64,000 bases of DNA, from positions 2,604,001 to 2,668,000 of the forward strand of contig NZ_LT607754.1 of assembly GCF_900090285.1 (NCBI RefSeq). Reading direction: 5' to 3'. The notes beneath the pieces are model-generated. The model searched no databases. It had not been told where the DNA came from and saw nothing but the letters and a program-made list of their open reading frames with translations. Made by a program: the position numbers and the translations under genes. This DNA is from Micromonospora inositola (GTDB taxonomy: Bacteria > Actinomycetota > Actinomycetes > Mycobacteriales > Micromonosporaceae). Below are positions 5,574 to 23,029 of this stretch, piece after piece; position 1 is the first letter of the stretch; every line of letters starts with the position of its first letter.

Positions 5574-5628
5574 TTGGCAACGAGGCAGTCATCCATCAGG
5601 GGATGCGCCTAGACACAGGAGGTAGCTC

Positions 5629-7123: not shown

Positions 7124-7126
7124 CCC

Positions 7127-7276: not shown

Positions 7277-7295
7277 CCGCCTACCCAACCCGGAC

Positions 7296-7333: not shown

Positions 7334-7363
7334 GCCCACTTCCTCGCCCAAGGAGGGCATCCC

Positions 7364-8236: not shown

Positions 8237-8442
8237 CCACCCGGGAGCGCACCTACACCCGCGCCAACCAGCAACGGGCCGCGCAGTACGCCGAAATCTG
8301 GATCATCGCCCAACCGGCGGAAATCGCCGCCATGGTCCAGGTCGCCTCCGCCAGCGGCCGACTCGTCTACGTCGGCCCACCCCAACTCATGGGCGGCGAG
8401 GACACCCGCCACCGCCGCTACCTGCGGCTGCGCACCACCTGA
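8233..8442 (+). CDS. small AICE protein, unknown function
   Basis: Translationally coupled to the motor gene through ATGA, this encodes 69 residues beginning MTTRERTYTRANQQRAAQYA. It has a short helical start, a central IWIIAQPAEIAAMVQVA segment and a basic end. Similar small proteins follow the Tra motor in many actinomycete elements. I know no function for it. Coupling and the shared strand support that it is real. Confidence 0.6.
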   Translation: MTTRERTYTRANQQRAAQYAEIWIIAQPAEIAAMVQVASASGRLVYVGPPQLMGGEDTRHRRYLRLRTT

Positions 8443-8451
8443 ATCGGCCGA

Positions 8452-8490
8452 CGGAACCGGCTCACGCCCTGCAAAGCCGATCCGGTTCCG
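8452..8490 (+). terminator. hairpin after transfer genes
   Basis: CGGAACCGG (8452-8460) pairs perfectly with CCGGTTCCG (8482-8490) across a 21-nt loop. Flanking TCGG and CCGA can extend the stem past a bulge. There is no U tract. It sits in the only sizeable gap between the tra genes and the next gene set. Confidence 0.4.
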
Positions 8491-8531
8491 CCGACCTCCA
8501 CCAACAGCCCTACCGAAAGGACGTGGCTGCC

Positions 8532-8972
8532 ATGAAGGCTACCCAGAACACACCCACCGGAGTCCAGGTCACCCCTGCTGATCTGCTGCGGATGGCTGCC
8601 CTCTACCTGCGCCGGCACGGCTGGCACCAGGGCACCTACTACGCCACCACCACCGACACGCCCACCCCGCCGGCCTGCGCCGTCGGGGCCATCGGCATGG
8701 CCTGCGCCGGATACCCGGTCCACCACTTCTCCGACCTCGACACGGACGACCGGCCCACCTACCTCGGCGCGGTCGCGGCCCTGACCGACTACCTCGACCA
8801 GCACTACCCCATCAACCTCGTCGACGACGACGGCTTCTGGCTCGACGAACACACCTCGCCCTACTCGTGGAACGACGACCCGCTCTGCACCGCGGAGCAC
8901 GTCATCGCCGCCCTGGAAGGCGCGGCGAAGGAGTGGGACCGCCTCCACACCCAGGGAGGCGAGAACCGATGA
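8532..8972 (+). CDS. DUF6197-family protein
   Basis: I prefer the ATG at 8532 (146 residues) over the GTG at 8523, because the AAAGGA at 8516-8521 is better spaced for it. Diagnostic stretches are LLRMAALYLRRHGWHQGTYY and CAVGAIGMACAGYP, which match a small domain of unknown function often present in actinomycete mobile elements. No catalytic motif is evident. It opens a run of five genes that overlap or abut each other, and it overlaps the next start (ATGA). Confidence 0.6.
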   Translation: MKATQNTPTGVQVTPADLLRMAALYLRRHGWHQGTYYATTTDTPTPPACAVGAIGMACAGYPVHHFSDLDTDDRPTYLGAVAALTDYLDQHYPINLVDDDGFWLDEHTSPYSWNDDPLCTAEHVIAALEGAAKEWDRLHTQGGENR

Positions 8973-9268
8973 GCACTGTCAAGCACACCTTGACGCACAT
9001 CCCTCGATCTCGCCGCCGGCGTGAGGTCGTCGAGAACGACGAATTCGCGGCGTTCGCACGCCGCATCATCCGCGCCCACGGCCGCCGCGTCGCCACCGGC
9101 GACGTCGAAGCCCTCCGCGACCTCGTCGCCCTCTCCGCTGTCATCGACGACGCCATCGGCGAAGCCGTCATCGGCCTCCGCGCCTTCGGCTACTCCTGGG
9201 CCGAGATCGGTGCCCGGCTCGGCATCTCCCGCCAGGCCGCCCAGCAGCGCTGGGGAGGCCAGCCATGA
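8969..9268 (+). CDS. small helix-turn-helix (sigma-region-4-like) protein
   Basis: The ATG at 8969 overlaps the preceding stop. The 99-residue basic protein ends in FGYSWAEIGARLGISRQAAQ, a helix-turn-helix like region 4 of sigma factors. The N-terminal part is Arg-rich. It is probably a DNA-binding accessory or regulator of the element. It overlaps the next gene by four bases. Confidence 0.65.
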   Translation: MSTVKHTLTHIPRSRRRREVVENDEFAAFARRIIRAHGRRVATGDVEALRDLVALSAVIDDAIGEAVIGLRAFGYSWAEIGARLGISRQAAQQRWGGQP

Positions 9269-9615
9269 CCACCGTCTACGACCGGACCGGCACCGAAACC
9301 GGATTCCCGACCTTCCCCTTCCGGATGGCCCCGGACGGCCTGGCCACTCGCCGGCAACTGCGCGCCGCCGGCCTACGACCCGGAGGACACGACCCGGTAG
9401 CGCAGATCCTCTGGCGGCGCGGCAAGCGCGTCGCCTACCTCTACCGCCTCGACCTCGCCGCACCCAAGCGGACCGCCACCCCCGCCCAGCGGGAGGCCAT
9501 CGCCAAGGCCCTACGCGCCCGGCGCACCTGCCGCCACTGCGGCCACCTGAAGCCCTACTACATCCCCCGCCGTACCGGCTCCTGCCTCGACTGCACCCCG
9601 GGAGGTGCTCGATGA
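9265..9615 (+). CDS. RRQRL-motif-type zinc-binding protein
   Basis: A 116-residue basic protein with MAPDGLATRRQLRAAGLRPG near the N-terminus and a C-terminal cysteine cluster, CRHCGHLKPYYI then CLDC, which should bind one zinc ion. The pattern matches a family annotated in actinomycete elements as RRQRL motif-containing zinc-binding proteins, of unknown function. It overlaps its neighbours at both ends, so it is co-translated in this operon. Confidence 0.65.
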   Translation: MTTVYDRTGTETGFPTFPFRMAPDGLATRRQLRAAGLRPGGHDPVAQILWRRGKRVAYLYRLDLAAPKRTATPAQREAIAKALRARRTCRHCGHLKPYYIPRRTGSCLDCTPGGAR

Positions 9616-9905
9616 CCACCGCCGTCACCAACCTCGCCGCTCAGGAGCGGATGACGCCGGACGACTACGTCGTCACCGCCCTCGCCCAGGATTTCGCCGC
9701 ACGCGGTGAGCTGTCCTTCGAGCGGTTCCTGTCCGGCTACTACGCCGAGTCCCTGCGCATCGTCCAGGAAGCCCACCTCGCCGACTGCACCGTCCCCGAC
9801 GGGCAGGGCTGCAACACCTGTGCCGGTATCCGGGTCGGCCTCGCCGGCCTGGCCGCCGAACAACGCGCCGTCACCTCCGGGGAGGTGACCACCCATGGCC
9901 GCTGA
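9612..9905 (+). CDS. hypothetical AICE protein
   Basis: Starting with ATG 9612 inside the previous stop, this encodes 97 residues with DYVVTALAQDFAARGELSFE and a CTVPDGQGCNTCAG cysteine group. It is mildly acidic and mainly helical. I do not recognise a family. It overlaps the next gene by 11 bp, which points to tight coupling. Confidence 0.55.
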   Translation: MTTAVTNLAAQERMTPDDYVVTALAQDFAARGELSFERFLSGYYAESLRIVQEAHLADCTVPDGQGCNTCAGIRVGLAGLAAEQRAVTSGEVTTHGR

Positions 9906-10605
9906 CCGCCCCACCACGGGCACCCGCGTCGAGGGCCTGGTCCTGGTCCTCATCCTGCTCACCGTAGCCGGCTTCGCCGGAGCCGCTTCCTTCACGCATG
10001 TCAAGGACTGGACCCTCGCCAACTCCCCGACCGGCACCGGGGCATGGTTCGGCTGGGCCAACGCCGTCATCTCCGAACTCGTCCCCATCGCCTGCCTCCT
10101 CACCATCCGCCGACGGCGCCGCACTGGCGCGCCGATCGGCTACCCGCTGGCCCTGCTCATCGCCGCCGCCGGCCTCTCCCTCGCCGCCCAGTTGGCGGTC
10201 GCCAAGCCGGGCATCTCCGGCTGGCTCCTGTCCGCCGTACCCGCGCTGGCCTTCATGGCCCTGGTCAAGCTCGTTCTCGCCCCGGCACCGACGCCGGAGC
10301 ACACCACGGCCGCTGCGGCGGCTGAGCCGATCCGAGTCCAGGGGGCCGAGCAGGTCACCGAGCCGCCGGCTGCCATCAGTCCGGCCACCGCGCCAAGCCC
10401 GGCCGTCGAGCGGGAGCCCGTCACCGCACCGGCCGAGCCGGTCGACGTCCCTGCCCACCTGCTGCCGATGGCCCGCTTCGCGGGTGTGCAGCACGAACAG
10501 TCCACCGGGGCACCCATCACCGCCGTCGAGCTGGCCGACCGCCTCGACGTTCCCCCGCCCGTCGCCGGGCAGCTCCTCACCACCCTGACCGGTGGTGCCC
10601 GATGA
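9895..10605 (+). CDS. DUF2637 membrane protein (Spd-like)
   Basis: The 236-residue protein has four hydrophobic helices within residues 12-130 and then a Pro/Ala-rich linker and a soluble end with ELADRLDVPPPVAGQLLTTL, which resembles a small winged-helix. The membrane part resembles DUF2637, present in spread (Spd) proteins of Streptomyces plasmids and AICEs. Those proteins help distribute the element along the mycelium after transfer. The position between the Tra and Rep genes fits this role. Confidence 0.7.
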   Translation: MAADRPTTGTRVEGLVLVLILLTVAGFAGAASFTHVKDWTLANSPTGTGAWFGWANAVISELVPIACLLTIRRRRRTGAPIGYPLALLIAAAGLSLAAQLAVAKPGISGWLLSAVPALAFMALVKLVLAPAPTPEHTTAAAAAEPIRVQGAEQVTEPPAAISPATAPSPAVEREPVTAPAEPVDVPAHLLPMARFAGVQHEQSTGAPITAVELADRLDVPPPVAGQLLTTLTGGAR

Positions 10606-10868
10606 CCATCTACCTCGTCGACGTCGAGCAGGTCATCCACACCTGCCCCGCACACCCGGACCCGCACCCCTACGACACCCGCCGGGTACTCGCCGACGTC
10701 ATCCCCGGCGGACCCTGCCGGGCACCGGTCACCATCCGCTGCGGCGGACAGACCGCACTCATTCCCTGCCATCGGCACGAGCCGGCCAAACGCCAATGCG
10801 GCGCCTGCCGGGTCATCGTCACCGAACGCACCATCACCAACCACCACCCCACCGGGGCGGCGGCCTGA
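10602..10868 (+). CDS. Cys/His-rich small protein
   Basis: This 88-residue protein is coupled to its neighbours by ATGA overlap at 10602-10605 and by a one-base overlap with the rep start at 10868. It has several Cys and His residues (CPAHPDPHP, CHRHEPAKRQCGACR), suggesting a zinc-stabilised fold. It immediately precedes the replication initiator. I know no specific function for it. Confidence 0.6.
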   Translation: MTIYLVDVEQVIHTCPAHPDPHPYDTRRVLADVIPGGPCRAPVTIRCGGQTALIPCHRHEPAKRQCGACRVIVTERTITNHHPTGAAA

Positions 10869-12652
10869 TGGCCTCGACGCTGGACCTCACCCCCCGCGCC
10901 TCCACGGCCCGGGGGGTGGGCTCGAACGCCGACACCATCGTCTACAGCTACACCGCCGCCGGCTCCGCGTTCGAACGCGCCACCCGCCCCGACTACTTCG
11001 GCTGGCTCGAACACGTCCGCTCCGCCGCCGGCTGCACCCGCCCCATCCGCCTCGCCGGCCAACTCCTCACCGTCGACCCCGCCACCGGCCGCGTCCTCGA
11101 CTCCCGGCACACCGACGCCATGCCCGACGCCGCGATCTACACCGCCTGCGGCAACCGCCGCGCCACCGTCTGCCCCTCCTGCGCCCAGACCTACCAGCGA
11201 GACGCGTTCCAACTCCTGCGCGCCGGCCTGGTCGGCGGCAAGGGCGTCCCCGAGACGGTCGCCTCGCATCCGGCCGTGTTCGCCACCTTCACCGCCCCGT
11301 CGTTTGGGACGGTTCATGCCCGGGTGGTGAAGCGGCACACCTGCGTCAACCGGAAGCGTTGCGACTGCCGCGCCGAGCCGTGCCACGCCCGCCGGGATGT
11401 CGGCGTCTGCGCCCATGGCCGCCCCGCCGTCTGCTGGGCCCGCCACGAAACCGGCGACGCCGTGCTCGGGCGGCCGTTGTGCCTGGACTGCTACGACCAC
11501 GACCACCAGGTCGTGTGGAACCTGTTCTCCGGCGAGCTGTGGCACCGCACCCAGCAAGCCGCGGAACGATGGCTGGCCAAGCTCGCCCGCCGCCGGGGCA
11601 TCCCCCGCGTCGAGGTCGTCACCGCATCTGGGCGCACTCGGAAGGTGTCGCCGGTGCGGCTGACGCCGGGGAAGGTCGCCGAACTCCAAGCCCGGGGAGC
11701 CGTGCATTTCCACGCCATCGCCCGCCTCGACGGCGTCGACCCCCTCGACCCCGACAAGGTAGTGCCGCCGCCGGCCGGGTTCACCGTCGCCGACCTCGTC
11801 GACGCGCTCCGCCACGCCGCCGCGCAGATCGCCTTCCACACGCCCTCACACCCGGACCGGCCCGAGGGCTGGTCGATCGCTTGGGGCGAGCAGGTCGACC
11901 TGGAGCCCATCGCCACCGACGGGACCGGTGAGGTCACCGACGGCATGGTCGCCGGATACCTTGCCAAGTACGCCACCAAGAGCACCGAGGCCACCGGGCA
12001 CACCTCCACCCGCCTGACTGCGGACAGCATCGACGACTACGCCGACCCCGACGGCGACCACACCGCCCGCCTCATCGACGCCTGCTGGCGCATCGGCCGC
12101 CCCACGGGAACCCCGGCCCCGCTGTCCCAGCGGCGCCGCGACCCTCGGCCCCGGCCCGGCTTCGTCGACCGCTGGGAGTGCCCCGACTGCGGCACCCACA
12201 CCCGCTACGCCGCCTGCCCCACCTGCACCGCCGCCCGTCAAGCCGCCCTTGACACCCAACCGGCGAAACCCGCGACGGCCAACCCTTACGCCCGGCTGCG
12301 GCGGTGGGCGCACATGCTCGGCTACGGCGGCCACTTCCTCACCAAAGGCCGCCGCTACTCGGTGACGTTCCAACTCCTGCGGGGCACCCGCGTCGCCTAC
12401 CGCCGTCATGAGGACCAGGCCCACGAGCATCCGGCCGCCGGCGGCCAGCCCGTCGACCAACTCGGCGAAGAAACCACGCTCATCGTCGGCACCCTCACCT
12501 TCGCCGGCGTCGGCTGGCACACCACCGGAGACGCCCTCCTCGCCAACACCGCCGCCGCCCTCGCCCGCGAACGACGAACCACCGGCCGCGAAGAACTCGC
12601 CCACGAACTCGCCACCACCCCCGTCGCCGGCACAGCGCCGGCCGCTGCCTAG
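10868..12652 (+). CDS. RepSA-type HUH replication initiator
   Basis: The ATG at 10868 gives 594 residues. Landmarks are AVFATFTAPSFGTVHARV, a zinc-binding Cys/His cluster around residues 160-215, the HUH metal motif HFH at residues 280-282, and GYLAKYATKSTE with Y364, K367 and Y368, where the nicking tyrosine should be. This is the layout of the rolling-circle initiator RepSA of pSAM2, which nicks the double-strand origin and lets the excised circle replicate before transfer. A second Cys cluster, CPDCGTHTRYAACPTC, lies near residue 440. It is followed at once by xis and int, as in pSAM2. Confidence 0.85.
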   Translation: MASTLDLTPRASTARGVGSNADTIVYSYTAAGSAFERATRPDYFGWLEHVRSAAGCTRPIRLAGQLLTVDPATGRVLDSRHTDAMPDAAIYTACGNRRATVCPSCAQTYQRDAFQLLRAGLVGGKGVPETVASHPAVFATFTAPSFGTVHARVVKRHTCVNRKRCDCRAEPCHARRDVGVCAHGRPAVCWARHETGDAVLGRPLCLDCYDHDHQVVWNLFSGELWHRTQQAAERWLAKLARRRGIPRVEVVTASGRTRKVSPVRLTPGKVAELQARGAVHFHAIARLDGVDPLDPDKVVPPPAGFTVADLVDALRHAAAQIAFHTPSHPDRPEGWSIAWGEQVDLEPIATDGTGEVTDGMVAGYLAKYATKSTEATGHTSTRLTADSIDDYADPDGDHTARLIDACWRIGRPTGTPAPLSQRRRDPRPRPGFVDRWECPDCGTHTRYAACPTCTAARQAALDTQPAKPATANPYARLRRWAHMLGYGGHFLTKGRRYSVTFQLLRGTRVAYRRHEDQAHEHPAAGGQPVDQLGEETTLIVGTLTFAGVGWHTTGDALLANTAAALARERRTTGREELAHELATTPVAGTAPAAA

Positions 12653-12666
12653 TAGCTAAGGAGGTC

Positions 12667-12855
12667 ATGTTGAACAAGCTGCTCACGACGAAGGAGGTTC
12701 TTGTCCTGCTGGGAGACGTGCCACGGTCTACCTTCTATCGCTGGCGTCAGCTTGGCCTGGGGCCTCGCTCCATCAAGCTGCCCAATGGTGAGATCCGCTA
12801 CCGCCCGGCTGATGTCGACAAATGGCTTCGCGAGCATGAAGAGGCCGCTGCGTGA
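12667..12855 (+). CDS. xis: excisionase (Xis)
   Basis: A 62-residue MerR-like helix-turn-helix protein with LTTKEVLVLLGDVPRSTFYR and a C-terminal RYRPADVDKWL, the typical AlpA/Xis form. Together with Int it directs excision of the element. The strong AAGGAGGT (12658-12665) is only one base from ATG 12667 and is better spaced for TTG 12670, so the true start may be two residues' worth of codons apart (MNKLL rather than MLNKLL). Its stop overlaps the int start. Confidence 0.85.
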   Translation: MLNKLLTTKEVLVLLGDVPRSTFYRWRQLGLGPRSIKLPNGEIRYRPADVDKWLREHEEAAA

Positions 12856-14318
12856 GCACGTACAACGTCAAGATCCATGACATCAGCAAGCGGGCTGACC
12901 GGGGGAAGAGCAAGGCCTACCGGGTCCGCTGGGCCGTTGCCGGTCAGCGTCGCGAGCGGTCGTTCATCACCAAGGCACTCGCGGACCGCTTTCGGGCCGA
13001 CCTTATGCAGGCGGTGAAGGCAGGCACCCCGTTCGACGAGCTGACTGGCCTGCCCGAGAAGTCAGCCGCCGAGCAGAGCCGCGTCACCTGGTACGCCCAC
13101 GCCCGCGCCTATATTGAGGTGAAGTGGCCAAGCCTTGCCGCGAAATCTCGTCGCTCGGCTGCCGAGGCTCTCGTTACCGTCTCCGCCGCTCTCGTCGCTG
13201 GCACGCGCGGCGCTCCACAGGCTGACGTTCTGCGCGAGGCCCTCTACTCCTGGGCGTTCAACCCGAACCGACAAGACGTCCCGCAACGGCGAGAGATCGC
13301 GGACGCACTGACGTGGATTGGCCGGGCATCCCGTCCTGTTAGTGATCTCGCCAAGGCCGACGTCCTCCGACAAGCGTTGATCGCATGTGCTCGCAAGCTC
13401 GATGGCAAGCCAGCCTCCGCTCGCACTGTGCAGCGCAAGCGGGCAACCCTGTACAACGCGCTGCGCTTTGCAGTCGAGCAAGACCTCCTGGACTACAACC
13501 CCCTCGACAAGATTCAGTGGAAGGCGCCGGAGGTTGGGGAGACCGTTGACCGCCGGGTTGTCGCCAACGCTGGTCAGGTCGAGGCAATCCTGGCGGCAAT
13601 CCCGGACGTCGTCCGCGACGGTGGTCGGTTCGTCGGATTCTTTGGCTGCCTCTACTACGCCGGCCTCCGGCCCTCTGAGGCAGCGAGCCTGCGCCGGACG
13701 GATTGTGATCTTCCGCCAACAGGCTGGGGCCGAATCGTCCTCGCTGAAACCAACCCCTACGCGGGAGCGAGTTGGAGCGAGACGGATGACGGCCGCGAAC
13801 TGCGTGGACTGAAGCACCGGGGCCAAGGGGAGACCCGGACTATCCCGATTCCCCCAGAGCTGGTCGGGTTGATTTGTGAGCACCTTGAGCGGTACGGGAC
13901 GACGCCCGACGGACGCCTGTTTCGGGGCCTCCGCGGTGGTCCGCTCGCCTCCTCGACGTACGACCGGGTCTGGAAAGAGGCGCGGGCCCACGCCCTCACA
14001 ACCGAGATTGCCGCGTCACCGCTTGCCAGGCGGCCGTACGACCTTCGGCATGCTGCCGTGTCGCTCTGGCTGAACGGGGGAGTACCGGCAACCGAGGTTG
14101 CTCGACGAGCTGGCCACAGCGTCGCCGTCTTGCTGAAGGTCTACGCCAACTGCATCGACGGGGAGGAAGAGGCGGTCAATGACAAGATCAGTCAGGCTCT
14201 ATCAGCCAGTCGGGGGCGGGGGCGTATCGGGGGGAAGACTGCCCGCTCTCGCCCTGTCCGTATCGCAAAAGCCCAGATCAGGTGGGTTGCAAGCAGGCGG
14301 AACGGCAACGCCCTGTAA
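12852..14318 (+). CDS. int: tyrosine site-specific integrase
   Basis: The GTG at 12852 overlaps the xis stop, giving 488 residues. N-terminal DNA-binding and SAM-like domains precede the catalytic domain. Visible active-site residues are R273 (YYAGLRPSEA), R399 (RPYDLRHAAVS), H422 (RRAGHS) and the nucleophile Y431 (KVYAN). The enzyme integrates the circular element into the 3' end of a tRNA-Tyr gene. The final codon TAA (14316-14318) overlaps the tRNA anticodon loop inside the attachment core, so the gene end is written by the tRNA sequence. It appears intact and is probably functional. Confidence 0.95.
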   Translation: MSTYNVKIHDISKRADRGKSKAYRVRWAVAGQRRERSFITKALADRFRADLMQAVKAGTPFDELTGLPEKSAAEQSRVTWYAHARAYIEVKWPSLAAKSRRSAAEALVTVSAALVAGTRGAPQADVLREALYSWAFNPNRQDVPQRREIADALTWIGRASRPVSDLAKADVLRQALIACARKLDGKPASARTVQRKRATLYNALRFAVEQDLLDYNPLDKIQWKAPEVGETVDRRVVANAGQVEAILAAIPDVVRDGGRFVGFFGCLYYAGLRPSEAASLRRTDCDLPPTGWGRIVLAETNPYAGASWSETDDGRELRGLKHRGQGETRTIPIPPELVGLICEHLERYGTTPDGRLFRGLRGGPLASSTYDRVWKEARAHALTTEIAASPLARRPYDLRHAAVSLWLNGGVPATEVARRAGHSVAVLLKVYANCIDGEEEAVNDKISQALSASRGRGRIGGKTARSRPVRIAKAQIRWVASRRNGNAL

Positions 14319-14364
14319 ATCCGTCGCGAAAGCTACAGAGGTTCGAATCCTCTACCCGCCACCA
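14313..14364 (+). repeat. attachment core 1: tRNA-Tyr 3' half
   Basis: This 52-bp segment runs from the anticodon loop (GTA anticodon at 14315-14317) through a long variable arm, the T arm AGAGGTTCGAATCCTCT and the acceptor strand ending in CCACCA. No 5' half of the tRNA precedes it; instead there is the int gene. It is the right attachment site of the element. An identical 52-bp copy lies at 17298-17349. Confidence 0.9.
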
Positions 14365-14373
14365 GGCAACGGC

Positions 14374-14411
14374 AAGGCCCCTGACCTGCGAAAACGCAAG
14401 TCAGGGGCCTT
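14374..14411 (+). terminator. terminator-like hairpin after attachment core 1
   Basis: AAGGCCCCTGAC (14374-14385) pairs with GTCAGGGGCCTT (14400-14411), with an inner GCG/CGC pairing around AAAA. It begins 10 bp after the tRNA CCA, as expected for a tRNA terminator carried along with the attachment site. Confidence 0.7.
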
Positions 14412-14767
14412 CGTCCTCTCCTGCCGCGGTTGACCGTTGTTGCCCCTGCTCGACCGGCCGATAGGGCATGCAACGGGCACGTTGGATCTTGGGGTTTCCC
14501 ACCAATCGTTGGTCGCGCCCTGGTCCTCGGTCTCGCGCGTGGCGTGGGGTGGGTCGCGGTGGACTTTCTCCATCCAGTCCCGGGATCGCTCTGGGGACCT
14601 TCCATGCCCACTCGTGGGCCGCGCTGTCCTATCAAGGGTGGCTGAGACCGGCCGGTTAGGAGGACACCGCACGCGCCTTCTCTCGTCGGCCCGGAGCAGA
14701 TACTGCTTCTTGCGTCGCTCTTTGCTCGCCGACAGTATGAGCCGACCACGAGTAGGGAGACCCCGGC
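14412..14767. other. gene-free stretch after the element end
   Basis: Open frames on both strands here give no recognisable protein, and none has a good ribosome-binding site with plausible composition. It is probably residual element DNA. Confidence 0.4.
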
Positions 14768-15022
14768 ATGCAGGTAGACCCACCGGAAAACCGGGGCATG
14801 GCTGCCCTCATGGTCGCTTCCGGCGTTGGCGGGCTGATACTGCTGCTTGCTGGCAATGGTGGGCGCTCATCAATTCTTGCCTTGGTGGCCTTCGCCTGCT
14901 TCATCGTCTGCGTTGCCCTGCTTGGCTTGAGTTCGGTGTTGCAGGAGCACGAGCGATGGCGCGCAGACCTCGAACGGCAGCGGCTAAGCGAGCAGGCTGC
15001 GGGCGACAACGCGAAGCGGTAG
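14768..15022 (+). CDS. small two-helix membrane protein
   Basis: The 84-residue protein begins MQVDPPENRGMAALMVASGV. Two transmembrane helices occupy about residues 12-28 and 35-57, followed by a charged helical tail (EHERWRADLERQR). A weak GGGAGA lies 12 bp upstream of the ATG. Function unknown. It stands alone between the two tRNA-Tyr fragments. Confidence 0.5.
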   Translation: MQVDPPENRGMAALMVASGVGGLILLLAGNGGRSSILALVAFACFIVCVALLGLSSVLQEHERWRADLERQRLSEQAAGDNAKR

Positions 15023-15334
15023 GTCGAAGTCCAGGGTCGATCGCACCGTCAGTTTGGAAGAGCGTGCTCAAGCGGTCGTGATGCCCGAAACGCCTGCGGG
15101 CGGCGGTCGGCCCGGTTGCGTCTCGTGCCCGCTCGTGCCCGCTGCGCGCCACGGTTACTGGCCCACGGATGGCCCATGCTGGCCTTCGGATTAAAGAAGA
15201 TCGCGGATGGCGGGTAAGGCGTTTGCACCCCTGGCCGGTACATCCGCTGTTGTCGGGTAGCGCCGATGTCTGGGGGTTCTCTTGGCTGTATGGCCGGCCA
15301 ACGCGTGGCCAGGGAGAGCCCTAGGCTCACGCCC
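15023..15334. other. gene-free stretch
   Basis: About 310 bp with no supported gene. It presumably contains the promoter of the anchored protein that starts at 15335. Confidence 0.35.
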
Positions 15335-15943
15335 ATGTCGGCGGAGCACGAAGTGATTGACCTAGACGAGCACGATCACCCGCCGGCGGAGTCGGGCGGC
15401 ACCACCCCTGACCGCCTCGGGGCCAGACGAAAGATGAATGTACGGCTTGTCGCTGCCTTCGTGGTCGGCGCTGTGCTCGGCGGTGTCGGGGTCAGCGGGC
15501 TGCGAGACTCGCGGGACGAGCGGGAGCGGAATGCTTCGGTCTCGCTCGTGGCCTTCCCTGAATACAGCGGTAGCAGGCGTACGGACATCGAGACAATCAC
15601 GGCCGTCGTTCAGATGGGCGGGCAACTGGCAGTGATCAACGCTGGCCCCGCGCCGATCACGGTTCGTGCGGCTGCAGGTCAACGACCCGGCATCCAGGTC
15701 CGTGACACCGGCCAGTCTCGGCTGCTACGCCCTGGCGGCACCGGCTGGATCGATGTCCAGCTGCGCATCGAGTGCTCTACCGCGTTCGAGAGCGAGCCGT
15801 TGTCGATACGGTTCTCGGTCGAGACCGCCGACCGACAGGTCAGAGAGGTCAGCTACCCCGTCGCCGTAAAAGGAAGCGCCTGGGACCGGGGGGCCGAGCA
15901 GCCATGCACGTTCATCACTGACTTGGCGAGGCGTGGCGGCTAG
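15335..15943 (+). CDS. membrane-anchored protein, unknown
   Basis: From the ATG at 15335 the product is 202 residues. An acidic His-containing N-terminus (IDLDEHDHPPAES) is followed by one transmembrane helix at about residues 35-55 (RLVAAFVVGAVLGGVGVSGL). An extracytoplasmic beta-rich domain follows with two cysteines (near residues 151 and 192). The Shine-Dalgarno-like GGGAGAG is 16 bp away, so a later start such as the ATG at 15434 is possible. I recognise no family. A large nested inverted repeat follows its stop. Confidence 0.55.
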   Translation: MSAEHEVIDLDEHDHPPAESGGTTPDRLGARRKMNVRLVAAFVVGAVLGGVGVSGLRDSRDERERNASVSLVAFPEYSGSRRTDIETITAVVQMGGQLAVINAGPAPITVRAAAGQRPGIQVRDTGQSRLLRPGGTGWIDVQLRIECSTAFESEPLSIRFSVETADRQVREVSYPVAVKGSAWDRGAEQPCTFITDLARRGG

Positions 15944-15950
15944 CGCTGAA

Positions 15951-16088
15951 GCGGATCTCCTCGTCGGGCAGTCGTAGACCTTCCAGCCTCCCCGGACGGG
16001 GACAAGGTGGAGCGCCCTACCGGACGAACGACCTTGGCCCCGTCCGGGGAGGCTGGTAGCCCTTGTGGTGCCCGACGAGGTGATCTGC
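15951..16088. repeat. 138-bp nested inverted repeat
   Basis: The outer arms CCTCGTCGGGCA (15959-15970) and TGCCCGACGAGG (16069-16080) extend outward to about 20 bp with two mismatches. The inner arms 15983-16001 and 16038-16056 are a perfect 19-bp pair (CCAGCCTCCCCGGACGGGG). They extend inward to 26 bp with one mismatch. The two stems are separated by 12-bp unpaired stretches on each side. It begins 8 bp after a stop codon, so a structured RNA, an unusual terminator or a small non-autonomous mobile element are all possible. Confidence 0.8.
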
Positions 16089-16219
16089 GGCGGCATCTCT
16101 GAGGAGGGTCGGGGTTCGGGGCGGAGCCCTGAGGTCTTCCAGGTCTTGTGTCCCAAGCGTGGCCGGCCGGCTCGGCCGATGCCGGCCGGAGGTCGCCAGC
16201 AGGCCGGGGCCGGGCCGGC

Positions 16220-16244
16220 GCGGCCCGCTTGCGGGCCGCCTTGA
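16220..16244. repeat. dispersed hairpin repeat, copy 2
   Basis: GCGGCCCGC, TT, GCGGGCCGC, then CCTTGA-type flank: a perfect 9-bp hairpin nearly identical to 2191-2214. It lies at the point where the N-terminal part of the adjacent integrase pseudogene is missing, so it may mark a recombination junction. Confidence 0.55.
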
Positions 16245-16328
16245 TCTTAAAGAGGTCAATTCGGCAACAGCCGTCGGTTGAACTATGTCGTGTCTCGGCT
16301 GATCCTTTACCGTCGTTTGAACTAGAGG

Positions 16329-17240
16329 GTGTCTGCCACAGGCGCACCACAGACCCGGCACACCTACCGATCGCTGCTGGCTCCGATGATCCTTCCGCGT
16401 TTCGGCAACGTGGTGATCTCCGCCGTCCTGCCGATGACCGTGGGGCGCTGGGTGGCCGACCTGAATACCCGGGTTGGTGCCTCCCAGGTTCGGCAGGCGT
16501 ACCGGCTGCTGTCGCAGATCATGGGCTCTGCCGTTGACAACGGGGCTGATCCCGGTGACCCCGTGCCGTGGCGTCAAGCTGCCCCGCCTGCCTGAGCCGA
16601 ACCCGACCATCCTCACCGCCGAGCACGTCAACCAGCTGGTGGCCGAGCTCTCTCCGCCGGATGATCTCCTGGGCCTGGTCCTCCCCTACGGCGGGCTGCG
16701 GATCGGGGAAGCGCTCTGTTTGCGGCGTCGGCATGTCGACGTGGCCGATGGTCGCGTGATGGTCGCTGAGTCGGTGGCTCAGCTGCCCGGTGGCCCGGTG
16801 ATTGACACGCCGAAGAGTCACCAGCGCCAGAACTCGCCCTGCCGGCCTTCATGATCGACCGGCTGCGGCAGCACCTCGCCGAGCTGCCTGAGGACCCGGA
16901 CGCCTTCCTCTTCCCCGGTCGCCAGCAACGGACCGCCGGCCGGCCGCAGAGCTACAACGGCTGGAAGTACCGATTCGACCGGGCGGTCGAGCAGGCCGGT
17001 CTGACCGACCTAATCCCGCATGAACTTCGGGCGACGCACGGTAGCTGGGTGGCGGACTCCCACGGCGTCCTGTTCGCCGCCCGCCGGCTGGGCCACTCCA
17101 ACGCCAGCGTCATGACCCGGCACTACGCCCGCGCGGTCGACGGACGGGGCCGCCTTCCTGAATCAAGCACGTTGGTCCGGCGACGTCTCCGAAGGGGCAC
17201 GCAACGGGCATGCGGGGGAGTCCGGGAGGTCCGCCGATGC
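16329..17240 (+). pseudogene. tyrosine integrase pseudogene, copy 1
   Basis: Three frames in succession encode parts of one tyrosine recombinase. The first has RHTYRSLLAPMILPRFGNVV, the second LTAEHVNQLVAEL and YGGLRIGEAL (catalytic Arg), the third LIPHELRATHGSW and LGHSNASVMTRHYAR (His/Arg box and nucleophile Tyr). An extra G in the run at 16542-16545 causes one shift, and a base is missing near 16826-16840. The N-terminal arm-binding domain is absent. It ends about 60 bp before attachment core 2, the normal int-att order, so it is the dead integrase of an older element. Confidence 0.85.
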
Positions 17241-17297
17241 CCCAAAACGTCCCTGAGCTGCCCAGACTTCCATCGGCAACCTTGACAACGGGCAAAA

Positions 17298-17349
17298 CTG
17301 TAAATCCGTCGCGAAAGCTACAGAGGTTCGAATCCTCTACCCGCCACCA
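17298..17349 (+). repeat. attachment core 2: tRNA-Tyr 3' half
   Basis: Identical over 52 bp to 14313-14364, again with the GTA anticodon loop, the T arm and an encoded CCA, and no 5' half. It follows integrase pseudogene 1. The 2.9 kb between the two identical cores is therefore framed like an integrated element of its own. Confidence 0.9.
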
Positions 17350-17357
17350 AATGCGAG

Positions 17358-17397
17358 AACGGCCCTGTGAGCTGCGGAAACGCGCTACGGGGCCGTT
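17358..17397 (+). terminator. terminator-like hairpin after attachment core 2
   Basis: AACGGCCC (17358-17365) pairs with GGGCCGTT (17390-17397), with further inner pairing around GAAA and a TTTCGTCT tail. It starts 9 bp after the CCA, parallel to the hairpins after the other two cores. Confidence 0.65.
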
Positions 17398-17524
17398 TCG
17401 TCTGAGGGTGATCCCTGCGGCCCTTCCGAGCGTCAGGGGCGGGTTCTATGGATGACCTGGGTAGTGGGCACACCTCGGTGGCCCGGGGATACGCTCCCCG
17501 GGCCACCGTCGCTCTGTCGGTGGC

Positions 17525-17878
17525 TCAGTGACGTGCCTTGCGCTCCTCTTGGCTGCGGTGGTTGCTTCCGGCCTTGGCCAGACCGCGGCTACCCAGGTAG
17601 CCGAGGGTCAGCAGTGTGATGAGGAACCAGGCCTGGTTGGCGCGGAAGATGTCCACGCCGACCGAGTTCTTGCCGACCAACTGGGATGCGGCCAGCACGC
17701 CGATCACTGCCGCGATGTAGACCCAGAACTCGGTTGTCCGTAGCGACGGCTTGGTCTCCGTTCCGGGCGCCTGCATCGGGCGTTCTGCGTCCATCATCAT
17801 CGGCGCGTAACGGGGTGCTTCCTGCACTCCCACCGCCCGGTCGGGTGCCTGCTGTCTGGATGCAGTCTGTGTGCTCAT
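17525..17878 (-). CDS. conserved two-helix membrane protein
   Basis: The start ATG at 17876-17878 has an excellent AGGAGGAAAG just before it, giving 117 residues; longer upstream readings are not needed. After a Pro/Met-rich soluble N-terminus come two transmembrane helices, TEFWVYIAAVIGVLAASQLV and AWFLITLLTLGYLGSRGLAK, then a charged tail. Proteins of this layout are common in actinobacteria and of unknown function. It may be host DNA, because it lies just beyond the second tRNA-Tyr fragment and looks intact. Confidence 0.75.
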   Translation of the reverse strand: MSTQTASRQQAPDRAVGVQEAPRYAPMMMDAERPMQAPGTETKPSLRTTEFWVYIAAVIGVLAASQLVGKNSVGVDIFRANQAWFLITLLTLGYLGSRGLAKAGSNHRSQEERKARH

Positions 17879-18154
17879 CTTTCCTCCTGGATGCGATGAG
17901 TCGTTCCTGCACTCCCTCGCCCCGATGCCGAGTTCGGCCTCGGCACGGTTCGTATTCATGGCGAGGTCACCCACGTCTACCCGACCCCTCGGAGCGGTAA
18001 CGCCTCCCACCGAACGGAGACCCGGATCGGGGAGGCAACTCGGATGAGGTGTTTCCGGCTGCGGGAACATCACGGGAACGGGAGAGGCCCTGCCTACAAG
18101 ATCATTGCAAAGCTGCTGGTCACGCATGGTGAGCCACCCGAGATCAGGCGCTCT

Positions 18155-18205
18155 CTGTAAATCCGGGCGAAAGCTACAGAGGTTCGCATCCTCTACCTGC
18201 CACCA
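18155..18205 (+). repeat. attachment core 3: degenerate tRNA-Tyr 3' half
   Basis: The 51-bp segment matches the two other cores except for CCGGGCG in place of CCGTCGCG, C for A in the T loop, and T for C in the acceptor strand. The CCA is kept. The T-loop and stem changes show it is not under selection as a tRNA. It is an older, decayed attachment site. Confidence 0.8.
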
Positions 18206-18207
18206 GG

Positions 18208-18243
18208 CGGCCCCCGACCAGCAGAGATGCCGGTCGGGGGCCG
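18208..18243 (+). terminator. terminator-like hairpin after attachment core 3
   Basis: CGGCCCCCGACC (18208-18219) pairs perfectly with GGTCGGGGGCCG (18232-18243), loop 12 nt. It has the same position relative to the tRNA CCA as at the other cores. Confidence 0.65.
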
Positions 18244-18245
18244 AC

Positions 18246-18517
18246 ACGGCCGGCGACGGACTGCCCGGCTACCGCTGCACCTACGCTCCGCTCTCGGCAG
18301 GCGAAACGAGCAACCTGCTGACCGTAGCGGCCGAGATCTCCGGGGCGCAGCCCGGCGACGTCCTCGACATGGTCGCCATCGACTCGGCCGAGTCGGACCT
18401 GGTCTACTACGACAACCTCTCGGCATCAGCAGGTACGGCTACAGCGGCTGGGTGACCCTGGCAGGCGGGAAGGAGGCCGTGGTCGACGCCGCCGTGGTCT
18501 CCAAGTACCTGTACTGA
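18246..18517 (+). pseudogene. frameshifted fragment of an unknown protein
   Basis: One frame reads YRCTYAPLSAGETSNLLTVA and continues to SDLVYYDNL near 18420. The sense then appears to pass into a second frame that reads RYGYSGWVTLAGGKEAVVDA and ends at TGA 18515-18517. The composition of both halves is protein-like, but there is no start codon. I read it as a decayed gene with a single shift near 18420-18430. I do not recognise the family. Confidence 0.35.
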
Positions 18518-18583
18518 CAGTTCGGCAACGCACGGGCCCAGGACCGGGGGTAGCCCGAGGGCCTGGGCCCTTGACGTTGGGTT

Positions 18584-18626
18584 GGAGCCCCCGGCCGGGA
18601 TCGAATCGGCGACATCTCGCTTACAT
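18584..18626 (-). repeat. fossil tRNA-Thr(UGU) 3' half
   Basis: On the minus strand these 43 bases fit tRNA positions 34 to 76: anticodon TGT, AA, stem GCGAG, a 5-base variable loop, T arm GCCGA-TTCGATC-CCGGC with one broken pair, acceptor CGGGGGC, discriminator T and an encoded CCA. No 5' half exists. It begins exactly at the anticodon, as integrase attachment fragments do, so it looks like the relic attachment site of an element that used a tRNA-Thr gene. Confidence 0.6.
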
Positions 18627-18861
18627 GCTTTCTGCGGAGCATCCGGCGACGTTCTTCTGCGTCGCCCACCTTTGAGCCGTCGTCCGTCGGCAGGCGGCGC
18701 TGGATGCCGTTATCTCAGCTCGCACGTCGGACGCGTTTTAAAGATTCCTCGTCGGCTGGCTTGGCTCCGTCGGTGGCTCCATTGCAGACAGCGGCACGGT
18801 GACACCGCTTCAAAGATCGGCTAGCCTCATGCTCCGCGACCCACCGCTGACAAGGAAAAGC

Positions 18862-20598
18862 GTGAAGATTGCACAGGCAACACGTGGGGCCGCCGTAGGA
18901 GTTCTGTCTCTGCTGAGCATCGCCGCGTGTTCACCGAGCGCCGCCAGCAGGCCGGAGCCTCTGCGCAGGCCGGCTCAGGCGACAGCTGATGCGGCCGACG
19001 CCCGCATCGAGCAGGACATCAGAGAGCAAGTTGCCGATCAGGTGCCTGCAAACGCGGCGACGGAGCCGGCGCCCCCCAAGACCACCGTCATACAGACCGA
19101 GGCGGCCGCGCCACAGATCAGGGTGGCGACTTCCGCTGGCCGCGCTATGCCCAGGTTCGATATGGATGGTGATGGCAAAGACGAGCTGGTCATTGGCAGT
19201 TCTGCCAGTCCGGGCGGGTTCGTCTTGCACGTTCAGTACTCCCGCCTCCCCCGTCGGGATACCTTGACCGCGCCCGCCACCGCCGAACCCACGCACAAAC
19301 TCTCGCACCAATTCGCCGCCGGTGACTTTAATGGTGACGGCTTCCAGGACCTTGCGGTTGCCAGCTATCGGACGCTTTCCCAAGGTGTCTTCGAGCACGG
19401 GATCTTCGTGTACGACGGCGGCTCCGGCGGGCTTGATCGCGACCATGTGAAATACCTGGCGGGGCTGCACGTTGGCGCACTCGCCTCGGGTGACCTCAAC
19501 AACGACGGCAGAGATGAACTGGCCGTCACCGACGGCGGCGCGAACCCGGACCGCGACGGGCCGTTCCGGGGCTCGGTGACGGTGCTGTCGGGCACCAGGA
19601 ACGGGCTCACCCTCGACGGCTCAGTGAAGGTTTATCAGGTTGTGCCCCGCTGGTCGGGCTTGGTGGAGGAGAACTTCGGCACTCAGCTGGCGATGGGTGA
19701 CTTCACCGGCGACGGCTACGACGACCTTGTCGTCAACGGGTCTAGACGCGGCACGACCGAGTCCGACTGGCATGGCATGGTGACGCTCTTCCCTGGCTCG
19801 GTTAACGGGCCAAGCGTCGCCAACGTCACGAAAATCGAAGGTCAAAGCGACACCGGGGGTGACAGCATCCCCGTAGACGTGATGGTGATGTCGGACATGG
19901 ACCAGGATGGACGTGAGGACCTCGTCCTTGGGCTTCCCCGTAGCTCAGGTGGAAGGGTCATCTATATCCGCGGCGCGGTCTCCGGGCTTGGATGGGCGCA
20001 GCACCGTGTGATCGACCAGGACACCCCGGGGGTTCCCGGTCAACCGGACAACGACTCAAACGGCGGCCTCTTCGGCCACTCGCTCGCGACCGGCGACGCG
20101 ACCGGCGACGGCATACCGGACCTGCTGGTCGGCGCGATGGCGATGACAGTGGGAGCGGTGGCGGATGCTGGTTCAGTCACGTTGATTCCCGGCACGCCGC
20201 AGGGCCCGACCGGGGCTGGCTCGGCCATCTATACCCAGAACGTCGTGGCCCGGAACTGGCCCAAGCCGCAAGCCGAGTTCGAGGACTGGGTCAGCGCGAT
20301 CAGCGATCGCCCGGAACCTGGCGACTACCTCGGGTCGTCCGTGGCGATTCTCGACCTGGACGGAACCGGACCGCTGGAGATGTTCGCCGAGTCAAAATTC
20401 GAGGACATCTGGCAGCAAGCGCCCGGGGAGCCTTACGGCCTCGTCACGACGCTGCGACTCCAAGCTCCTACGCTCCGGCGCGGTTCTTCGCAGCCGCCCG
20501 CGTTTCGCTTCGTGCCGGTGAAGCAGCAGCGCCCGGCGGACTTCTCGGATCTCGGGTTCCGCGTCGTCCACTTCGGATATGGCCTGCTGAGTAACTGA
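18862..20598 (+). CDS. FG-GAP repeat lipoprotein
   Basis: The GTG at 18862 follows AAGGAAAAG and gives 578 residues; the ATG at 18829 is an alternative. The first 23 residues form a lipoprotein signal ending in the lipobox SIAAC (acylated Cys at residue 23). Seven calcium-binding FG-GAP-type units follow, with cores DMDGDGKDELVIG, DFNGDGFQDLAVA, DLNNDGRDELAVT, DFTGDGYDDLVVN, DMDQDGREDLVLG, DATGDGIPDLLVG and DLDGTGPLEMF. Seven units suggest a complete integrin-alpha-like beta-propeller on the cell surface. Its ligand is unknown. A clean hairpin terminator follows, so it is transcribed alone. Confidence 0.85.
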   Translation: MKIAQATRGAAVGVLSLLSIAACSPSAASRPEPLRRPAQATADAADARIEQDIREQVADQVPANAATEPAPPKTTVIQTEAAAPQIRVATSAGRAMPRFDMDGDGKDELVIGSSASPGGFVLHVQYSRLPRRDTLTAPATAEPTHKLSHQFAAGDFNGDGFQDLAVASYRTLSQGVFEHGIFVYDGGSGGLDRDHVKYLAGLHVGALASGDLNNDGRDELAVTDGGANPDRDGPFRGSVTVLSGTRNGLTLDGSVKVYQVVPRWSGLVEENFGTQLAMGDFTGDGYDDLVVNGSRRGTTESDWHGMVTLFPGSVNGPSVANVTKIEGQSDTGGDSIPVDVMVMSDMDQDGREDLVLGLPRSSGGRVIYIRGAVSGLGWAQHRVIDQDTPGVPGQPDNDSNGGLFGHSLATGDATGDGIPDLLVGAMAMTVGAVADAGSVTLIPGTPQGPTGAGSAIYTQNVVARNWPKPQAEFEDWVSAISDRPEPGDYLGSSVAILDLDGTGPLEMFAESKFEDIWQQAPGEPYGLVTTLRLQAPTLRRGSSQPPAFRFVPVKQQRPADFSDLGFRVVHFGYGLLSN

Positions 20599-20614
20599 GT
20601 GCCATGGATGGTCG

Positions 20615-20643
20615 AGCTCCGCCAGCCTTCTGCTGGCGGAGCT
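20615..20643 (+). terminator. terminator of FG-GAP gene
   Basis: AGCTCCGCCAGC (20615-20626) pairs with GCTGGCGGAGCT (20632-20643) across a 5-nt loop, 17 bp after the stop codon. No U tract is present, as is usual for this GC-rich genome. Confidence 0.7.
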
Positions 20644-20944
20644 TGACCCCTTCGATGGACTGTCAGAGGCGGGCGCGCCTTAAGGAACGGCCGAACAACC
20701 CCTCGCACCCGCCTGTTTCGTCGGTGAATTCGAAGTCGACGCTACCCGTTGCCGCTCTGCCCCGACCGGCCGGCGTGCCTTTGCATTACGAGATCAAGTT
20801 GTCCACCCGTGCGACCTGCACGCGGCAGCGGCTAGCAGGGGAAGGCAGGTCCGGCCCCTGGCTTGCAAAGTCGACGCGGTCTCTCGGCCGTATTTCGGAA
20901 GTGGTCGGGTCCAGGCTGAAACCAGGGCTGGAAAGATCGCATGC
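20644..20944. other. gene-free stretch
   Basis: About 300 bp without a supported gene. It may hold the promoter of the genes that follow. Confidence 0.35.
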
Positions 20945-21031
20945 ATGACCTCTCTGCCCCAACCCGACGACCTGGCGTCCCTGGTCTTGCGCACCGGCTT
21001 CAACGACGACCCGGCCCGGGCGGTTCGGTGA
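20945..21031 (+). pseudogene. truncated DUF6924-like gene
   Basis: ATG 20945 opens a 28-codon frame reading MTSLPQPDDLASLVLRTGFN, then DDPAR and a stop at 21029-21031. This is the typical N-terminus of DUF6924-type actinobacterial proteins, which normally continue for well over 100 residues. The remainder is missing, and the next gene begins at the break. Confidence 0.5.
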
Positions 21032-21747
21032 ATCCCAACAGAGCGACCCCTCGGATCGTGAGCGAAGAGGATCTCGTCGGCTTCACAGCCGGCCAGTTCC
21101 TGGGCGTGATGAAAGCCCTCACGGTGATCCTGACCCTGCCTCAGTCAGCAGCCGACCACGTCGACGCAGTCGTCATAGCCATCGGTCAGGGCGAAGAATG
21201 GCGTCTCACTCATGCGATCCGTAACTGGGAGGCGAACCCAAAGCTCCGCTACCTTTTAGTAGCGAACGGGAACCCGGCTGAAGAGACCTATGTCAAGATC
21301 ACGCTCGACTACCTGCGGAGCCTCGGCCTTCGTCGCGTCAATGGGGTCTACCTCCAAGCCGAGCCGGCCCCCAACACCGGCATGCAGGCCGCATGGATCG
21401 TCAACCAGGTCCAAGCCCGCGGCATCACAAGCCTCGCGCTCATTGTCTCCCCCTATCACCTGGCCCGCGTCTACCTCACGGTCCTCAAAGCATTCATCAG
21501 GAGTGGTATTCGCCTCCCCATCATCCCGCTCCCCGTGGCCGTCCCCCCAGACACACCCGTCCCGGAAACCGGAGCGACCGCCTACGACCTCGTACCCGGG
21601 GAAGTCAAACGCATCCTCACCTACATGGGCAAAGGATGGGTCGCCACACCGGAGGAAGTACAGCAGTACCTGCAGTGGCTATGGAGCCATCACAAGGCCC
21701 TCCTCGTCAGAGCCCGGTCTGAGGCTCAAAGCCCACCATTCCAATAG
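21028..21747 (+). CDS. DUF218/YdcF-like protein
   Basis: From the GTG at 21028 the product is 239 residues; GTG 21058 is also possible and neither has a clear ribosome-binding site. The sequence VVIAIGQGEEWRLTHAIRNW, then NTGMQAAWIVNQVQARGITS and LALIVSPYHLARVYLTVLKA resembles the DUF218 fold of YdcF, SanA and ElyC (Rossmann-like, S-adenosylmethionine-binding in YdcF). It lacks the usual membrane helices, so it should be cytoplasmic. The start lies on the scar of the truncated DUF6924 gene, so its original N-terminus may be lost. Confidence 0.6.
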   Translation: MNPNRATPRIVSEEDLVGFTAGQFLGVMKALTVILTLPQSAADHVDAVVIAIGQGEEWRLTHAIRNWEANPKLRYLLVANGNPAEETYVKITLDYLRSLGLRRVNGVYLQAEPAPNTGMQAAWIVNQVQARGITSLALIVSPYHLARVYLTVLKAFIRSGIRLPIIPLPVAVPPDTPVPETGATAYDLVPGEVKRILTYMGKGWVATPEEVQQYLQWLWSHHKALLVRARSEAQSPPFQ

Positions 21748-21865
21748 GCCTTCAACTCCGGCCCGAGCTGCCTCGACCTGTCCGTTCACCCCTCTGGTAC
21801 CTACCGCACCTGATGATCTCCGAGAAGGGTCGCGGTTCGGGGCGGAGCCCCGAGGTCTTCAGGGA

Positions 21866-22990
21866 CTTGTGTTCCTTCAGCGTGGGCGCTGGCAGGTGCG
21901 CTATCGGGGACCGGACGGCTGAGACCACCCTGCCCCGACCACCTTCGAGAGCAAGCGGCTCGCTGAGCGGTTCCTCGCCTTGGCCGAGGCGGACATCGCC
22001 CAGGGCCGGTGGATCGCGCCGCAGGCGAGCCGGACGACAGTAGGGGAGTGGGCCGAGGAGTGGTTCGCCGCCTCTACCCCGAGGCTCAAGGCGAAGACCC
22101 GCCACACCTGCCGGTCCCTGCTAACCCGGATGATCCTTCCGCGCGTGGTGCTCGCCGCCGTCCTGCCCGATGACCGTGGCCTGCTGGGGGGCCGACCTGA
22201 CGACCCGGGTTGGTGCCTCGCAGGTTCGGCAGGCGTACCGGCTGTTGTCGCAGATCATGGGTGCGGCTGTCGACAACGGGCTGATTCCGGTGACCGTGCC
22301 GTGGCATCAAGCTGCCTCGTCTACCTGAGCCGAACCCGACCATCCTCACCGCCGAGCACGTTGACCGCCTGGTGGCCGAGCTGTCGCCGCCGGATGACCT
22401 CCTGGTCCCGGTCCTCGCCGACGGCGGGCTGCGGATCGGGGAAGCACTCTGTCTGCGGCGCCGCCACCTCGACCTCAGCGATGGCCGCATGACCGTCGCC
22501 GAGTCGGTGGCCCAGCTCCCGGGCGGCCCTGTCATCGACACTCCGAAGAGTCACCAGCGGCGGGACTCGCCCTGCCGGCGTTCGTGATCGAGCGGCTCCG
22601 TCAGCACCTCGCCGAGCGGCCCGAGGACCTGGACGCCTTCCTCTCTCCTGGTCGACAGCAGCGGACCGCCGGCCGGCGGCAGAGCCACAACGGCTGGACG
22701 TACAAATTTGACCGTGCGGTCGAGGGCGCCGGCCTGACCGACCTGATTCCGCACGACCTTCGGGCAGCACACGGTAGCTGGGTGGCTGATTCGCACGGCG
22801 TCCTGGTCGCCGCCCGCGGGCTGGGCCACTCGAACGCTAGCGCCACGACCCGGCACTACGCCCGCGGTGAACGGCCGGGATGCGGAGGTGGCGGCCTTCC
22901 TGAGCCGGGAACGCCGGGCCGGGAACGCCTCCGAAGGGGCACGCAACGGGCACGCGGGGGAGCCTGTGCAGGTCGGCGAGACCAAAGAGT
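21866..22990 (+). pseudogene. tyrosine integrase pseudogene, copy 2
   Basis: This is a paralogue of copy 1 with the N-terminal domain still present: GRWQVRYRGPDG, an in-frame TGA at about 21920, then TTFESKRLAERFLALAEADI and GEWAEEWFAASTPRLKAKTR. The core is broken by indels around 22140-22210 and 22276. The catalytic part continues as DGGLRIGEAL, DLIPHDLRAAHGSW and HSNASATTRHYAR in two frames. The frame break at about 22560-22575 is at the same place and of the same length as in copy 1. The downstream tRNA half is gone; only a flank-like GGGCAAAAC and GGGGCCTTCGTC remain near 23030-23065. Confidence 0.85.
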
Positions 22991-23029
22991 GGCCCCGAGC
23001 TGCGGAAACATCGAGCGATGATCGCGATA

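Follow-up and report, generated by a model that had tools for sequence, protein, structure and literature searches.

Probable serial integration of tyrosine-recombinase elements at one tRNA-Tyr gene of Micromonospora inositola

Stacking of mobile elements at tRNA genes is a recognised route of growth in genomes of this kind. SLP1, one of the actinomycete integrative and conjugative elements (AICEs), itself uses a tRNA-Tyr gene, and tandem accretion of elements in streptococci was reportedly described by Pavlovic et al. in 2004. Most Frankia AICEs are arranged in the order att-tra-rep-int-att, the transfer, replication, and integrase genes lying between two attachment (att) sites (Ghinet et al. 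2011, PMC3218068), and arm-type repeats or integrase sites on both sides of attP have been described for pSAM2 and pACPL (PMC3364876). At a tRNA-Arg gene of Streptomyces, between one and three elements, belonging to different families, are stacked together with an ancient trace, flanked by identical direct repeats (PMC9513070). AICEs that accrete serially at a tRNA gene have thus been reported before, and the locus treated here is a new, well-stratified member of this class. It lies in a 64,000-nucleotide stretch of Micromonospora inositola (the window; RefSeq assembly GCF_900090285.1, contig NZ_LT607754.1, positions 2,604,001 to 2,668,000, forward strand), where an AICE-type element (element 1) and at least three relics are each bounded on the right by a copy, or the remains of one, of the 3′ half of a tRNA-Tyr gene. 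Our reading, to which we assign a probability of about 0.93, is that tyrosine-recombinase elements integrated serially at this one gene; the array would then be an ordered record of repeated visits to it. A literature search for Micromonospora together with tRNA-Tyr returned no paper, although such work may still exist in print.

The 52-bp core that recurs in the window corresponds to the tRNA-Tyr gene from the anticodon loop through CCA (bases 33-84). An earlier annotation, made from the sequence alone (the sequence-only reading), had described an exact repeat of this core (cores A and B) and an altered third copy (core C). Cores A and B were found to match the gene letter for letter, C differs from it by three substitutions and one deletion, and all three copies start at the same base (Table 1). 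The intact gene had been predicted to lie left of the window, as against a complete tRNA-Tyr elsewhere with no 3′ half to the left. A complete tRNA-Tyr(gta), ending in the same 52 bp, was identified by ARAGORN at G000:C1:2596481-2596564 (G000:C1 denotes the contig of the window), 7.4 kb left of the window start at 2604001; no tRNA was called at A, B, or C. A 44-nt core pattern, searched with up to three mismatches, occurs at four places in the 6.7-Mb genome, all of them exact (the tRNA gene, A, B, and one ectopic site), whereas the reversed control pattern occurs at none, so the core repeats are not due to chance. The first 20 bases of the gene are present in one exact copy, and no second tRNA-Tyr was found by pattern search at up to two mismatches, with no genome-wide tRNA-finder scan made and a tRNA-Tyr of other sequence possible; three mismatches admitted 11 further places, compared with nine places at up to three mismatches for the reversed control. 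When the 5′ part of the gene, core A, and the flank of A were joined in silico, a complete tRNA-Tyr resulted, which probably represents the state before element 1.

Element 1, which measures 21,800 bp from core to core, appears to be an intact AICE with its key genes preserved. The genes run in the order FtsK-domain transfer protein, RepSA, xis, and int. An excisionase role for the 62-residue Xis-like protein is suggested by its position beside int. The leftmost core had been said to follow an intact integrase, and an open frame of 488 codons indeed leads into A. This recombinase gene ends inside the core, the first six bases of which (14313-14318), CTG TAA, supply its final Leu codon and stop. 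The integrase stop is thus read from the tRNA anticodon loop, and the opening bases of the att core double as coding sequence. The element occupies the 3′ end of the tRNA-Tyr gene, which is left complete as judged by ARAGORN, and has the 52-bp direct repeat at both ends. A 19-bp repeat, CCGGGGGCGTATCGGGGGG, lies 147 bp to the right of the left core start and again, with one mismatch, 97 bp to the left of core A; it occurs at four places genome-wide at up to one mismatch, and the reversed control at none. These repeats resemble the arm-type repeats of pSAM2 and pACPL, and are candidate integrase sites. Element 1 is like the pSAM2/SLP1-type AICEs, as these are described, in its tyrosine integrase, xis, RepSA, FtsK-domain Tra, and att-tra-rep-int-att order, and also in its insertion at a tRNA 3′ end and, if the 19-bp copies are arm-type sites, in the repeats that flank its att core (PMC3218068, PMC3364876). 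At 21.8 kb it is longer than the AICEs drawn in PMC3364876 (10.9-17.3 kb). Its cargo includes an ASCH-domain gene and a fatty-acid desaturase gene; four of the ten proteins first scanned in its window part had no Pfam match at 0.01.

The att-bounded segments continue in series beyond element 1, the succession of boundaries being tRNA-Tyr, A, B, C, and a collapsed core E. Core B was said to follow a dead integrase, and the gene before it is in fact broken across frames, its C-terminal piece scoring over the PF00589 cut-off (1.2e-8) and its N-terminal piece under it (0.0081). Core C was said to have no integrase of its own, in agreement with tblastn searches using both integrases (those before A and B), which detected none between B and C. 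The count of three right ends was too low. There are at least four, the fourth lying near 23041 with a second dead integrase that shares 82% DNA identity with that of relic 2 over 965 aligned positions. This similarity reaches into the opening bases of the core, from where the sequence passes abruptly to the apparent 3′ arm of a hairpin, and the 23041 site is read as a collapsed fourth right end (core E). The element 1 integrase gave no tblastn match to the integrases of relics 2 and 4 at 1e-6, which means that the site has served two or more lineages of integrase, just as different integrases are described at the Streptomyces tRNA-Arg gene (PMC9513070). Native DNA resumes at about 23151 (93.6% identity to G043, a related strain). 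Relic 2 also contains a 138-bp imperfect palindrome (75%; window 15951-16088).

The cores were also said to be followed by terminator-like hairpins. For the tRNA gene and for each of the cores A, B, and C, the 60 nt that follow were folded and compared with 200 shuffles, and at none of the four sites did any of the 200 fold as well as the real sequence (-37.5 kcal/mol after the gene; z from -4.5 to -5.9 over the four). A scan of 14250-18350 for a stem with a T-run gave one site, at no core, with 2.1 expected, and was uninformative. The strong fold thus holds at A, B, and C and the T-run at none, so that the hairpins are terminator-like without a T-run. They differ from one another in sequence, as would be expected if each element had arrived with its own hairpin.

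Table 1. Features of the tRNA-Tyr array, in window coordinates
Feature	Position	Strand	Remarks
Element 1, window part	1..14364	+	element begins within tRNA-Tyr at G000:C1:2596513, to the left of the window
FtsK/SpoIIIE-domain transfer protein, 290 aa	7364..8236	+	PF01580 6.9e-12, 45.7 bits (cut-off 24)
RepSA-type replication initiator	10592..12652	+	PF20199 4.1e-142
Xis-like putative excisionase, 62 aa	12667..12855	+	overlaps int start; HTH_17 2.3e-9, 37.8 bits (cut-off 27)
Tyrosine integrase, one open frame, 488 aa	12852..14318	+	PF00589 3.5e-9, 37.1 bits (cut-off 27.1)
Putative right arm-type repeat, GCGGGGGCGTATCGGGGGG	14216..14234	+	left copy at G000:C1:2596660-2596678
Core A (attR of element 1; tRNA-Tyr 3′ half)	14313..14364	+	52/52 identity to tRNA-Tyr bases 33-84
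Relic 2	14365..17297	+	first ~320 bp common to relative G043
Hairpin after core A	14365..14424	+	-35.1 kcal/mol, z -5.9
Dead tyrosine integrase of relic 2	16351..17285	+	pieces in different frames; PF00589
Core B (tRNA-Tyr 3′ half)	17298..17349	+	52/52 identity to tRNA-Tyr bases 33-84
Relic 3	17350..18154	+	no integrase detected
Hairpin after core B	17350..17409	+	-33.3 kcal/mol, z -4.5
Core C (tRNA-Tyr 3′ half)	18155..18205	+	3 substitutions and 1 deletion relative to the gene
Relic 4	18206..23066	+	missed in the first reading
Hairpin after core C	18206..18265	+	-41.3 kcal/mol, z -5.6
FG-GAP repeat gene in relic 4	18799-20598		
DUF218-like gene in relic 4	20941-21747		match under Pfam cut-off
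Dead integrase of relic 4	22095..23046	+	PF00589 1e-5 on C-terminal piece, just under cut-off
Putative collapsed fourth core E	23041..23066	+	first few core bases, then apparent 3′ arm of hairpin
Native GAF-GGDEF-EAL gene	23661..26201	+	between tRNA-Tyr and tRNA-Thr in relatives
tRNA-Thr(ggt), native right landmark	26311..26384	+	

The mechanism that we infer is drawn from this anatomy and from AICEs already described. Tyrosine-recombinase elements would use the 3′ part of the tRNA-Tyr gene as their attachment site, and their circular forms would carry the last 52 bp of the gene and a hairpin. Recombination, with the crossover probably at the anticodon loop, where the cores begin, would give the tRNA gene the 3′ half and hairpin of the element and leave the gene's former 3′ half at the distal end of the element. 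A gene restored in this way would be a target again, so each newcomer would land to the left of the previous one. Element 1 would be the newest, and relics 2, 3, and 4 would be earlier arrivals that have lost most of their genes and kept their right ends, the preservation of which is on the whole poorer towards the right. Excision and transfer of element 1 may still occur, possibly with carriage of relics in cis, and the perfect cores A and B lead to testable predictions on whether an intact element takes the adjoining relic with it when it excises. The locus shares with streptococci the serial, site-specific accretion of integrative elements, but differs from the tandem accretion described there in that movement of a relic by an intact neighbour is only predicted here (PMC7168690).

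The sequence-only reading had placed the oldest insertions to the right, and this order is supported by the rightward decay of the cores (A 52/52, B 52/52, C with four changes, E collapsed) together with G043, which shares the flank of A and the native end. Among ten intervals compared, that of G043 was the closest. Its array consists of a core, 1.06 kb, a core, 4.7 kb, a core, ~3.1 kb, and then the last ten core bases with a hairpin-like stretch, followed by native DNA. The second core of G043 and its right flank are 92% identical to A over 375 bp including the core, and the last remnant adjoins the same native junction as E. Element 1 is absent from the G043 locus, where its place is taken by a short fragment of a related integrase (77% over 74 residues). 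The flank of A, being common to both strains, is older than their split, as the outermost remnant probably is too; element 1 would be a later arrival in the present lineage, or would have been lost in that of G043. Native DNA and a related strain helped to set the order of the array, unlike the Streptomyces tRNA-Arg case as it is described, from which the locus also differs in its tRNA-Tyr site and in having one apparently intact element followed by three relics (PMC9513070). Strain comparison at the locus should allow straightforward dating of AICE arrivals.

The interval between tRNA-Tyr and tRNA-Thr was compared in 60 genomes of the genus, 57 of which carry both genes close together on one contig; G015 and G053, with the genes on different contigs, and G042, with the genes ~4 Mb apart on its contig, were left out. 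Measured from hit midpoint to hit midpoint, the interval spans 3.4-29.7 kb in the 57 relatives (median 7.5 kb) and 33.8 kb here, the largest of the 58 genomes. At least 28 of the 57 relatives have one or more extra tRNA-Tyr 3′ halves in the interval, and at least six have two or more; the same count gives three here, E being too decayed to be counted. These are lower bounds, with up to 13 candidates scored in each genome and 16 further matches excluded (one of 61.7 bits and 15 of at most 47.3 bits, mostly the hairpin alone). The locus is therefore a recurrent target across the genus. The sequence-only reading had also taken an adjacent Tyr-Thr-Met tRNA cluster as the normal state, since split. 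This ancestral state is ruled out: tRNA-Tyr and tRNA-Thr are adjacent in none of the 57 relatives, the shortest gene-to-gene distance is 3.3 kb (G040), and DNA of the GGDEF/EAL gene lies between them in all ten intervals compared. Since the two genes are natively at least ~3.3 kb apart in relatives, ~30 of the 33.7 kb between them here is added DNA.

Serial integration at one tRNA gene, as the sequence-only reading had proposed, is borne out by 3′ halves of the same gene, an intact gene to their left, and relics in series. Several observations nevertheless weigh against it. The core of B is no more decayed than that of A, and the arrival order of each single relic is not proven, as a newcomer could enter an older core. 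Core E is based on few bases, the element 1 integrase has no detected match among the relic integrases, and element 1 may no longer be mobile. Copies of the element's left end elsewhere in the genome are not accounted for by accretion alone. Base composition is a weak marker of added DNA, with a G+C content of 67.7% in element 1, 64.8-66.8% in the relics, 72.5% in the GGDEF gene, and 68.4% in the window right of 30000.

The most serious competing explanation, which we consider rather unlikely, is that some relics entered a displaced 3′ half (A, B, or C) and not the tRNA gene, in which case position would not be a strict clock. Core B, as perfect as A, would fit such entry, and stacked AICEs and relics at one tRNA gene are described as varying between strains (PMC9513070), but decay rises rightward overall and G043 has the flank of A and the native end without element 1 there. 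The 82% DNA identity of the relic 2 and relic 4 integrases is what old duplicates could show, and it could point to a single composite element cut by internal deletions, with the inner cores as duplications within it. We judge this very improbable, as the post-core hairpins differ in sequence, the element 1 integrase has no detected match to those of the relics, and G043 has some of the boundaries without the others. Hardly any credence is given to the 3′ halves as passive tRNA duplications or assembly artefacts formed without a recombinase: A, B, and C share their starting base, A, B, and E among the four right ends are each preceded by an integrase or what is left of one, and extra 3′ halves recur in the relatives counted above, although some assembly redundancy is possible in a record whose two ends overlap by 17.7 kb.

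The wider distribution of the element 1 integrase also speaks for the accretion reading. Relatives of the integrase were found at 1e-60 in 61 of 160 genus genomes, that of the window included. ARAGORN analysis of 33 integrase loci (L033-L065; 30 from the genus scan and three from a scan of named genomes) placed 12 beside tRNA-Arg, ten beside tRNA-Ser, five beside tRNA-Tyr, and six beside no tRNA; the anticodon types were Arg(cct), Arg(ccg), Ser(tga), and Tyr(gta). The locus of the window is one of the six without a tRNA, and carries the 3′ half. In genomes G001-G060, 17 of 26 integrase places, counted after split matches were merged, have tRNA-Tyr or its 3′ half no more than 3 kb away, and nine do not. 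The named-genome scan gave 26 pattern-matching stretches and three confirmed loci, two in Streptomyces, both at tRNA-Ser, and one in a metagenome-assembled genome, where no tRNA was found. In a protein search with 8000 candidates scored, the closest named integrases among the 120 of 2667 matches listed were from Micromonospora (88%).

The 3′ part of tRNA-Tyr with the left flank of the element, its hairpin included, was also found ectopically in this genome, at 6687692 (copy D), 6382696 on the reverse strand (copy F), and 2522749 (L007, L008, and L009), and in relatives, at G043 C1:126109, G014 C213:297, G052 C1:2074236, and G056 C1:3782; further candidates are present in G010, G015, and G056 (C92). 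Two of the three ectopic copies in this genome keep the exact 19-bp repeat, and the G043 copy is 93% identical to the left end of element 1 over 829 bp. The G056 copy is preceded by a nearly whole tRNA, and among the remaining copies the 5′ half has decayed, is missing, or could not be judged. The similarity of the left flanks of these ectopic copies to the tRNA 5′ half was assessed against 20,000 genomic 40-mers, the degenerate core of G052 being aligned by hand, and gave p values of <0.0001 (G056), 0.0003 (G052), 0.0028 (G043), 0.036 (G014), and 0.157 (D); copy F and that at 2522749, both truncated within the 3′ half, fall outside the test. Right-end controls gave 0.017 (A), 0.53 (B), and 1.0 (C), and 1.0 and 0.30 for two G043 cores; the middle p values are weak because control A itself reached 0.017. 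No empty site was found for D, the flank of which has partial matches only (best 81% over 376 bases, in G014), or for F, with flank matches in a different order in G043. These copies may tentatively be regarded as landings at secondary, non-tRNA sites, or as the traces of lost second tRNA-Tyr genes once used by elements. In the latter case they would amount to a concealed history of tRNA gene turnover brought about by mobile elements. Two AICEs with att sequences matching those of tRNA-sited relatives have been described with no tRNA gene identified, and tRNA remnants were suggested as their sites (Ghinet et al., PMC3218068). In the G014 copy (L011:297-421), the T-stem is changed on both strands with pairing kept, as judged by eye.

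The end of the contig (G000:C1:6688870-6707994) repeats its start (1-17693) at 99.8-99.9%, save for a 1.4-kb stretch that just one of the ends has and the long frame of which is transposase-like by eye; the repeat is either an untrimmed circular overlap or a tandem duplication. It contains a RepSA relative and an integrase adjoining tRNA-Val. A 516-bp stretch at window 1718-2227 is 91% identical to one in the tRNA-Val element region, and similar pieces lie near other element ends or rep genes.

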